The translations under genes were made by a program, and so were the position numbers. The notes below the pieces were generated by a model. The model had not been told where the DNA came from. It searched no databases and saw nothing but the letters and a program-made list of their open reading frames with translations. This document shows, one piece after another, positions 61,312 through 64,000 of a stretch of DNA of 64,000 bases. The stretch's first letter is position 1. Each line of letters starts with the position of its first letter. This DNA is from Mesorhizobium shangrilense (lineage in GTDB: Bacteria > Pseudomonadota > Alphaproteobacteria > Rhizobiales > Rhizobiaceae): positions 682,001 through 746,000 of the forward strand of contig NZ_JAQGPN010000001.1 of assembly GCF_028826155.1 (NCBI RefSeq), given 5' to 3'.

Positions 61312-61903
61312 CGATCGCTCCGAGTTCCCGAAGTTTGGAAAGCAGCGCCAGAAGCGGCAGGCCGACAATGGTGAAATGGTCCCCGACGACCTTCTCGAAG
61401 AGCTGTATGCCCTCGCCTTCGATCTGGTACGCGCCGACGCTGCCCAGCGCCTTCGCCCCGACGCTTGCCAGATGGCGGCCGATAAAGGCCGGCTCGAGCT
61501 TGCGCATCGTCATCTGAGCGACGTCCACGTGACGCCAAAGGGTCTCTCCGTCCTTGACGATCGCGACCGCGCTATTGAGCTGATGGGTGTTGCCGGAAAG
61601 CGCAAGCAGGTGCTCGCGCGCGCCTTCCATATCCTTCGGCTTGTGGAAGACGCGGTCGCCGAGCGACAGGGTCTGGTCCGATCCGATGACAAGCGCGCCG
61701 GGATGCCTTTCACTGACATCGAGCGCCTTGGCCTCCGCCAGCACCTGTGCGACGTCCTCAGGCGTCGCGCCTGACGCCTCCAGCGGCGCCTCGACGGCGC
61801 GCTCGTCGATCTCGGGGCGTACGACCGTAAACTTCAGGCCGGCATTCTCGAGCAGCTGTCGCCGGAAAGGACTGCCGGAAGCAAGTATGATCGCGCTGGG
61901 CAT
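61304..61903 (-). CDS. maf: Maf family nucleotide pyrophosphatase
   Basis: A 199-residue Maf/HAM1-like enzyme that hydrolyses non-canonical nucleoside triphosphates: N-terminal [33 protein letters not shown], and [16 protein letters not shown]. Start ATG 61903 begins this conserved sequence. Overlaps aroE by 8 bases and lies 29 bases after ppsR, same strand. Confidence 0.95.
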
Positions 61904-61932
61904 TTGATGCGGCCTCCTTGAAGGCGTTCGGC

Positions 61933-62754
61933 CTAGCGCGACTTGCCGCGCAGGGCAACGATGGCTGCCGCCGTTTCCTCGATGGATCGACGGGTCACGT
62001 CGATCATCGGCCAATTGTGGCGGGTGCAGATCTGGCGCGCATAGGTCAGTTCTTCGGTGATGGCCGCTCTGTCGACGTAGTCGGTCGCGTCATAACTCGA
62101 CGTCGTTCCCAGCATCCGGTTCTGGCGCACCTGGGAAATCCGCTCGGCGGTGGCCACCAGGCCGACGATGAGCGGCCGCCGCGCGTCGACCAGGCTTTGC
62201 GGCACCGGAACGCCCAGCACGATGGGAATGTTGGCGGTCTTGATGCCTCTGTTGGCGAGATAGATGCTGGTCGGCGTCTTCGACGTGCGCGAGATGCCGA
62301 TGAGGACGATGTCGGCCTCCTCGATATCCATCGGCAGCTGACCGTCGTCATGCTCCATGGTGAAGTTCAGGGCGTCGATGCGCCGGAAATACTGGGCGTC
62401 GAGCACATGCTGCGCCCCAACGCGCCGGCCTGCCGGCGCGCCGAGATAGGACTGGAACACGGCCAGCACCGGCTCCAGGACGGACACGCAGGGCAGTCCC
62501 ATCTGCTGGCAGCGTTCGTCTATGGACCGGGCCAGCGCCTGGTCGACGACCGTGTAGAGGACGATGCCCGGCTCGTTCTCGACCTCCTCGAACACCTTCT
62601 GCAGCTGCCGCTCGGTGCGGATCAGGGGATAGATGTGCTCGATCGCACGCGCGTCCTTGTACTGCGCGGACGCCGCGCGGCCGGCGGCCAGCAGGGTCTC
62701 GCCCGTGGCGTCCGAAATCAGGTGCAGATGAAAGAAGCTCTGGGGTTTGTTCAC
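61933..62754 (-). CDS. ppsR: pyruvate, phosphate dikinase regulatory protein (DUF299)
   Basis: A 273-residue bifunctional kinase/pyrophosphorylase family protein: opening [21 protein letters not shown]-loop [18 protein letters not shown] (about 150-167) and the C-terminal [19 protein letters not shown]. The start is GTG 62754, which begins the conserved sequence; in-frame codons upstream translate intergenic DNA. In Caulobacter and Rickettsia this gene (RP001) flanks the chromosome origin opposite hemE. Confidence 0.93.
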
Positions 62755-63154
62755 AGACGATGTGCCCGACCTGTTGAAGGCTGTGGATGGCTCGCCCGAG
62801 CTGGTCCCGGGCGGCGCGGCGGACTGTATCAGAACGCCGTTTGTCCACAATTCGAGGCGGCGTGAAGTTCGATGCCCCCATGTGGAGAAGATTGTGGGCT
62901 TTCGGAATTATCCACGGAGGCTGGATTCCGGCGACCAATCGCTGGTTGATCAAGTACCTGTCTCTGCTATGCTTTTCAAGCTTGTCCCCAGTGTTCACAC
63001 TGAGCGCCTGACAAGCGCTTTTCGCCGCGAAATCTCGGTTCTGGCGTCCGAGGCGTGACCTTTTGCCTACTCCCGATTCCAACAGACTCGTAGAATCAGA
63101 AGACTCTTTTCAAATAGGATTTTCTTTAAGGCTAGCCGGAAAGGACAACGCGAA
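62755..63154. other. candidate chromosome replication origin (oriC) between ppsR and hemE
   Basis: A 400-base gap without genes. Near-consensus DnaA boxes (TTATCCACA): TTATCCACG (62908-62916), TTGTCCACA (62841-62849) and, on the minus strand, TTCTCCACA (62881-62889) and CCATCCACA (62782-62790). An AT-richer stretch lies at about 63090-63130, next to hemE. Five GANTC sites, four of them within 63075-63106. The same gap between hemE and the DUF299 gene is the proven origin in Caulobacter; in Sinorhizobium the origin is also next to hemE. No CtrA site was recognised. Confidence 0.8.
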
Positions 63155-64000
63155 TTGGCCGGAAAACGGATCGTCGTAGACGTGCTGAACGGGGAAGCGA
63201 GCTTCCCTCCTCCGATCTGGATGATGCGCCAGGCCGGACGCTATCTGCCGGAGTACCGGGAGGCCAGACGCCAGGCCGGCGGTTTCCTCGACCTTTGCTA
63301 CAACCCTGATCTCGCCGTGGAAGTGACCCTGCAGCCGATCAGGCGGTTCGGGTTCGACGCATCGATCCTGTTCTCCGATATCCTGGTGGTCCCGCATGCG
63401 CTGGGACGCGACCTGCGCTTCGAGGAAGGCCGCGGACCGTTGATGACGCCGATCCGGGAAGGCGAGGTCGATGAACTCGACGGCGAGGCGTTTCACGTGA
63501 ATCTCGCTCCCGTCTACGAGACGGTAACCCGCCTGCGGAAGGAACTTCCGGACGAGACGACGCTGATCGGCTTCTGCGGGGCGCCGTGGACGGTGGCGAC
63601 CTACATGATCGCTGGGCACGGCACGCCCGACCAGGCGCCGGCGCGGCTCTTCGCCTACCGGGCGCCCGAGGCAATGCGACGGCTGCTGAACACGCTTGCG
63701 GAGCGGTCGGCGGAATATCTGAAGCGCCAGATCGCGGCCGGCGCAGACGTGGTCCAGATCTTCGATTCCTGGGCCGGCGTGCTCGACGAGGCCTCGTTCG
63801 AGGCGTTTTGCATCGAGCCGGTGCGCCTGATCGTCGAGAGCGTGCGCCGCGAGTATCCGGACGTGCCGATCATCGGCTTCCCGCGCGGCGCAGGGGCTCT
63901 CTACGACACCTACCGGGCGCGGACGGGCGTGACCGCGCTTGGGCTGGATTGGTCGGTGCCGTGGACGCAGGCGAGAAAGCTGCAGGCCGAAGGGGCGGTG
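63155..64000 (+). CDS. hemE: uroporphyrinogen decarboxylase (partial, C-terminus beyond window)
   Basis: 282 codons are visible, running off the right edge. The start is TTG 63155 with AAGGA 9 bases upstream; no ATG fits the family's N-terminus. Landmarks: [19 protein letters not shown] (active-site Arg), [17 protein letters not shown] (catalytic Asp), [21 protein letters not shown] and [12 protein letters not shown]. It makes coproporphyrinogen III in haem synthesis. It lies beside the origin, as in other alphaproteobacteria. Confidence 0.96.

Follow-up and report, generated by a model that had tools for sequence, protein, structure and literature searches.

Among the replication origins described in Alphaproteobacteria, that of Caulobacter crescentus (Cori) has been mapped experimentally to the interval between hemE and the COG1806/DUF299 gene, and the cited sections of that report describe DnaA boxes and an AT-rich region within it (PMC1914354). 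Several GANTC sites, which are targets of the methylase CcrM, are noted in Cori in passages of another study (PMC3973325). Secondary origins of the repABC type, for example ori2 of Agrobacterium tumefaciens, are likewise GANTC-rich and influenced by CcrM in the sections cited (PMC11514494, PMC6090056). In Escherichia coli oriC, an AT-rich zone lies beside the DnaA boxes, and a methylation site, in this case that of Dam, is repeated within the zone.

In this report, we analyze a 64,000-nucleotide stretch of DNA (the window), corresponding to C1:682001-746000, where C1 is a 4,816,668-bp contig of a 5.55-Mb assembly with five contigs. Judging from sequence and its comparison, the 400-bp gap between ppsR (DUF299) and hemE in this window is almost certainly where chromosome replication starts in a Mesorhizobium-like bacterium, an origin of the hemE/DUF299 type. 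It shares with Cori the flanking genes, the DnaA boxes and the AT-rich stretch, and is thus a known kind of origin, ordinary in kind. What is new is a conserved pattern of GANTC sites where the strands presumably open, which can be compared across species.

The gap also differs from these systems. We found no CtrA site of the form TTAA-N7-TTAA, full or relaxed, in 62701-63200 and no match to the IHF consensus (WATCARNNNNTTR) on either strand of 62600-63300, whereas such sites belong to the Caulobacter type and are also reported for Wolbachia in the part of the survey cited (PMC1914354). A dense, conserved GANTC array in the hemE-side zone is a further difference from Cori, which was compared by its published description. 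Unlike the RepC-driven repABC origins, the gap has the features of a DnaA-type main chromosome origin. The pertinent methylase is CcrM rather than the Dam of E. coli, and the distance from boxes to AT-rich zone is much larger than in oriC. An Rfam search of 61800-64000 gave no match.

Sequences compared

A match to ppsR was found in 117 of 151 genomes of the family (the window's own included), representing 85 genera. The family set took one locus per genus, or 80 loci, with five genera left out and one locus sharing the window's genus. Adding the window gave 81, and removal of two loci without a recognizable hemE (L188 and L254) left 79, that is, 78 relatives from 78 genera and the window. A close-relative set, chosen by PpsR match and sharing some genomes with the family set, consists of 80 Mesorhizobium-type loci (81 sequences with the window). 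A third set consists of 20 loci from other families of the order, one from each of 20 families among those with a match, and 19 of these loci have hemE.

The search for clusters of boxes and of GANTC sites covered the window together with 40 systematically placed samples of 20 kb, a total of 864,000 bases in which 20 kb is counted twice. GC skew of the genome was likewise computed from forty evenly spaced 20-kb samples. It is by computation that the location, the skew, the clustering and positional conservation of boxes, the parS-like sites, the duplex instability and the GANTC enrichment described below were established.

Gene context

Both flanking genes were identified by model matches: ppsR exceeds the cut-off of NCBIfam model NF003742 by 344 bits, and hemE exceeds that of TIGR01464 by 411 bits. 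The GTG start of ppsR was selected as the point at which the matches of relatives begin. With this choice, the gene-free gap of 400 bases proposed in an earlier note on this DNA is exactly 400 bp, between the GTG at 62754 (minus strand) and the TTG at 63155 (plus strand). The same note had named maf, aroE, coaE and dnaQ as a conserved flank, and these identities hold for the genes to the left of ppsR. To the right, the order is hemE, rho, mnmE, mnmG, rsmG, a gene for a ParA-type ATPase and parB; the ParA-type matches fall below curated cut-offs, and this label rests partly on the position ahead of parB. Judged by PpsR, the nearest named relatives are mostly Mesorhizobium, at 85-89% identity among the best 80 of 310 matches, from which near kin are perhaps missing. 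Features of the locus are listed in Table 1.

Table 1. Features of the ppsR-hemE locus in window coordinates. Matches to the DnaA box consensus are given as places out of nine; conservation is the number of the 79 family loci with a box at the given number of mismatches.
Feature	Coordinates	Strand	Description
ppsR / DUF299 (pyruvate,phosphate dikinase / PEP synthase regulator)	61933..62754	-	ORF, GTG start; left flank
DnaA-like box TTGTTCACA	62747..62755	+	7/9; overlaps ppsR start; ≤1 mismatch 13, ≤2 mismatches 51
Intergenic region, predicted origin (oriC)	62755..63154 = C1:744,755-745,154	.	400 bp, ppsR to hemE
DnaA-like box CCATCCACA, position A	62782..62790	-	7/9; ≤1 mismatch 47, ≤2 mismatches 73
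DnaA box TTGTCCACA, position B	62841..62849	+	8/9; best conserved; ≤1 mismatch 60, ≤2 mismatches 72
DnaA box TTCTCCACA, position C	62881..62889	-	8/9; ≤1 mismatch 39, ≤2 mismatches 62
DnaA box TTATCCACG	62908..62916	+	8/9; outside family-conserved positions
Isolated GANTC site (GATTC)	62924..62928	.	Fifth GANTC of gap
DnaA-like box TTGTCCCCA	62982..62990	+	7/9 match to consensus
GANTC (CcrM) array, four sites	63075..63106	.	Sites at 63075, 63085, 63093, 63102; spacing 10, 8, 9 bp
Conserved core element ACAGACTCGTAGAATCAGAAG	63082..63102	+	Family form ACMGASTC-WWAGAAWYARAAR
Predicted duplex-unwinding zone	63090..63129	.	Least stable 40 bp of gap by nearest-neighbour stability
hemE	63155..64000	+	ORF, TTG start; right flank; runs beyond window to C1:746189

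GC skew, parS-like sites and the position of dnaA

A GC-skew minimum at the locus had been suggested as a check on the origin, and such a minimum was found in the forty samples together with a contiguous stretch of 164 kb. In that stretch (C1:682-846 kb, 1-kb bins), cumulative skew is lowest at C1:744,000, less than 1.2 kb from the gap. In finer 20-kb steps, the sign changes from -0.023 at 722-742 kb to +0.020 at 746-806 kb; both signs occur between 826 and 946 kb. Among the forty samples, skew is positive in every one from 0.96 to 3.12 Mb and mostly negative from 3.24 Mb through zero to 0.86 Mb, with slightly positive values at 3.48 and 0.36 Mb. The cumulative curve of the samples has its minimum between 0.72 and 0.96 Mb, the 840-kb sample being lowest, and peaks between 3.12 and 3.24 Mb, a range that includes the point opposite the gap (its antipode, 3.153 Mb). 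The signal is weak, with skew of no more than about 0.05 per 20 kb, and the minimum seen in the samples (840-860 kb) misses the gap by about 100 kb; only the contiguous 164 kb gives a sharper position.

Palindromes resembling parS (at most two mismatches) occur at only three places in the genome, C1:749758, 749822 and 751783, each matching on both strands, compared with one forward and one reverse match in a backward control. They span C1:749758-751798 (L084:4758-6798), which is outside the window and 4.6-6.6 kb from the gap. Two lie at the mnmE-mnmG junction and one at the start of rsmG, with the ParA-type gene and parB just beyond.

The dnaA gene is at C1:409, 745 kb from the gap. Contig numbering thus begins at dnaA, which might be taken to mean that replication begins near that gene, or in any case somewhere other than the gap. 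However, skew does not change at C1:1, with negative values in all five samples from 4.56-4.70 Mb and 0-0.26 Mb, and the parS-like sites are far from dnaA. We therefore regard a start near dnaA or elsewhere as extremely improbable, and the zero of the contig was probably set at dnaA rather than at the origin. An origin in the gap, as the earlier note had proposed, agrees with the skew, with the parS-like sites and parB close by, and with the order of the genes and the conserved positions of DnaA boxes. Replication of this genome would then begin 745 kb away from the dnaA-based zero. A second, weak match to the Bac_DnaA domain (23 bits, at the cut-off) was observed on a different contig, at C2:206407-206706.

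DnaA boxes

The four DnaA-like boxes recognized previously (three with 8/9 matches and one with 7/9) are present and span 135 bp, from 62782 to 62916, and two more 7/9 boxes lie outside that span, at 62747-62755 and 62982-62990. The box that had seemed best, TTATCCACG at 62908, is indeed an 8/9 match, but it is poorly conserved among the 80 close relatives. The box that hardly varies among them is TTGTCCACA at 62841.

The number of boxes is weak evidence by itself, because six matches with at most one mismatch in the window, compared with 2.86 expected (standard deviation 1.54), are reached in 5 of 100 shuffles, and because the genome as a whole has no excess (274 matches versus 363 in the backward control). 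Their clustering is strong evidence. Three of the six fall inside 76 bp, and in the 864,000 bases sampled this triple is the tightest, at 67 bp from start to start; the runner-up measures 9,253 bp.

Box positions are also conserved across the family (Table 1), with the proviso that the ranges used for positions A to D were picked after the loci had been inspected. At up to one mismatch, permuted boxes gave means of 0.2-0.6 loci at these positions (0.4-0.6 at A to C), with single maxima of 6, 49, 14 and 3. At position D, a box is found in 25 of the 79 loci at one mismatch or fewer and in 37 at two or fewer; the window has none there at up to two mismatches.

Two other conserved patches were observed in the gap. 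The block at 62822-62832, around TGTATCAGA and immediately to the left of box B, is almost invariant in the 81 close sequences, though not family-wide, and is perhaps a binding site. The other lies between the boxes and the zone on the hemE side, and at its edge is a small imperfect palindrome, GACAAGCGC / GCGCTTTTC at 63010-63023.

A conserved GANTC array beside hemE

The point that the earlier note missed is the array of four GANTC sites in the AT-rich hemE-side zone. GANTC occurs 82 times in the window, a mean of one site per 780 bp, and nowhere else in the 864 kb examined do three sites fall inside 32 bp. The most conserved segments of the gap among the close sequences are the 20-bp stretches that begin at 63078-63084. 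Within the 80 Mesorhizobium-type loci, 71 have three sites at spacings of 8 and 9 bp, five have all four sites, and ACAGASTC is present in all 80.

Across the 79 family loci, a core element can be placed 54-108 bp ahead of hemE in every case (in locus G046, the first of two candidate anchors was used). GASTC is present in 76 loci. A GANTC is found 8 bp downstream in 38 loci and 17 bp downstream in 30, with 24 loci having both, and 25 loci have one 10 bp before. In what we read as Rhizobium-like loci, GASTC alone is left and is mostly followed by TAAGAAATAGAA.

Enrichment was assessed among the 256 patterns of the form XYNZW with an order-1 model. From 20 to 100 bp before hemE, GANTC ranks first, with 222 occurrences versus 45 expected and at least one site in 77 of the 79 loci, and its twelve one-letter neighbours occur at 0.2-1.96 times expectation. 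It is not over-represented from 100 to 400 bp before hemE (118 versus 106.7 expected, rank 72 of 256). When the core is excluded, GANTC still ranks first between core and hemE (86 versus 22.4 expected), and in the entire gap it ranks 14th. Because the family loci are related, these counts do not represent independent events.

At the third site of the array, the variable position is C, T, A and G in 23, 25, 32 and 1 of the 81 close sequences, whereas the fixed letters G, A, T and C are kept in 79, 80, 79 and 80. Since N varies while GA and TC are fixed, and since GANTC is first of 256 patterns, CcrM sites in the hemE-side zone of rhizobial origins are apparently kept under selection.

The pattern extends to other families, where 16 of the 19 loci have GANTC from 20 to 100 bp before hemE. 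The 32 occurrences compare with 5.7 expected from base composition, which places GANTC at the top of the 16 palindromes; the next is at 1.62 times expectation. In several of these loci, TAATCCAC, a DnaA-box-like 8-mer, comes first, and a short run of GC and an A-rich stretch separate it from GANTC.

Genome searches gave the following results. The core 27-mer with up to three mismatches is too strict a pattern, as it matched only 8 of 297 genomes of the order, all in the window's family, and 2 of 123 genera. GANTC-N3-GANTC-N4-GANTC occurs in 41 of 151 family genomes, at 43 places, versus 8 matches in 7 genomes for the backward control. For the 30 places with loci (L126-L155), hemE, ppsR or both are inside the 1.5-kb flanks in 24, and neither is in 6. 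These six triplets (spacing 8 and 9) away from hemE and ppsR are in L128, L138-L141 and L144.

The predicted unwinding zone

The hemE side is AT-richer, as previously suggested, with a GC content of 0.40 in 63105-63154 versus 0.65 for the window. In 63 of the 79 loci, the 40-bp segment of lowest duplex stability starts 4-17 bp past the core anchor (8 bp in the window); in 15 loci it is over 100 bp away on the left side, and in one it is 28 bp to the right. On this basis, the core would form the left edge of an unwinding zone, and the least stable DNA adjoining it is probably the unwinding element. The clustered candidate methylation sites in this predicted zone recall the Dam/SeqA arrangement: GATC occurs every 13-16 bp in E. 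coli oriC (L257, positions 145, 161, 176 and 189), compared with GANTC spacings of 10, 8 and 9 bp here, and in both origins the T-rich strand, as judged by eye, runs 5' to 3' towards the boxes. About 100 bp separate the zone from the closest 7/9 box, and about 170 bp from the closest 8/9 box; the 9-mer directly left of the core matches the DnaA box in only five of nine places by eye.

We propose that DnaA would bind boxes in the ppsR-side two thirds of the gap (62747-62990), and that a DnaA oligomer may then open the AT-rich hemE-side zone at about 63090-63129, with the conserved element ACMGASTC-WWAGAAWYARAAR marking the left edge of the opening. Forks would depart in both directions, and ParB presumably acts at the parS-like sites 5-7 kb to the right to segregate the new origins.

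The core might instead be an array of DnaA-trios that belongs to a basal unwinding system of the Bacillus subtilis type. Its As at positions 8, 11, 14 and 17 are kept in 79, 78, 76 and 78 of the 79 loci, and this nearly invariant period of three, with intervening positions that vary more on average, is what such an array would produce. However, the polarity of the A-rich strand is reversed with respect to boxes on its left, and in Helicobacter pylori reversal of trio polarity blocked opening, according to the cited part of that study (PMC8235120). The published search rule, as given in the section cited, calls for at least three NAN near a box (PMC8287927); applied in the window with a box of up to two mismatches within 16 bp, it fails at the core and has a single match, of three NAN, beside the box at 62841. 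With both polarity and rule failing, we rejected the core as a DnaA-trio array, an identity that we consider decidedly unlikely.

Another explanation is that the conserved element on the hemE side, GANTC sites included, serves as a promoter of hemE under cell-cycle control of the GcrA/CcrM type and only happens to lie inside the origin, and is not an unwinding element. Its constant placement 54-108 bp before hemE would suit a promoter, as would the presence of GcrA and CcrM in the genome. GANTC methylation is needed for GcrA binding in the passages cited (PMC3667746), and GANTC is favoured in intergenic DNA generally, by more than 1.5-fold on average in the cited portion of that work (PMC3973325). 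Nevertheless, no site of the sigma-70-like type, the one sought, occurs in 62700-63250 (0.2 in shuffles), the least stable DNA borders the element in 63 of 79 loci, and a similar layout adjoins a DnaA-box-like 8-mer in several other families. A promoter is therefore possible though somewhat doubtful, and we favour an unwinding element.

CcrM, GcrA and the question of methylation

The genome encodes GcrA (gcrA at C1:4418453) and has one N6/N4-methylase gene, a CcrM homologue that scores 648 bits with NF050803, below that Caulobacter-type model's cut-off of 830. CcrM matches were found in 18 of 18 genomes searched, two as fragments only. A link between loss of GASTC and loss of CcrM was rejected, since the three genomes without GASTC (G026, G065 and G039) all encode CcrM, at 68-73% identity; their retention of CcrM also speaks against a regulatory role.

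As a hypothesis, CcrM sites might be built into the strand-opening element in Rhizobiaceae and probably the whole order, much as Dam sites are part of the AT-rich repeats of E. coli. Methylation by CcrM late in the cycle, or the hemimethylated state that follows firing, would then tune melting or the capture of the opened strand by DnaA, thereby coupling re-initiation to the CcrM-GcrA clock in a manner convergent with Dam/SeqA. We judge this full proposal unlikely. If the sites did act in initiation, an unrelated methylase would be tied to origin opening in Alphaproteobacteria.

Published results argue against a strong effect of methylation on origin opening. In the portions of the Caulobacter study cited, the answer on a role in initiation is negative, with cells without ccrM having a DNA content like the wild type, and CcrM overexpression leads to extra chromosomes, which lends weak support to a regulatory role (PMC3973325). 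For A. tumefaciens, the sections cited report that CcrM overexpression did not significantly change ori1 numbers and that ori2 responds to CcrM, the latter again a weak support (PMC11514494).

The literature searched yielded no methylation tests on main origins besides those of Caulobacter and A. tumefaciens ori1. In its open-access part, conserved GANTC sites were not described for the main origins of rhizobia; Sibley 2006, on the S. meliloti origin, may mention CcrM sites, and Shaheen 2009 is said to be the source for GANTC in the Caulobacter origin.

We also observed that exact copies of TTATCCACA occur only three times in the genome, and two of them, at C1:4399188 and 4409469, are separated by 10 kb and lie at distances of 9-19 kb from gcrA.
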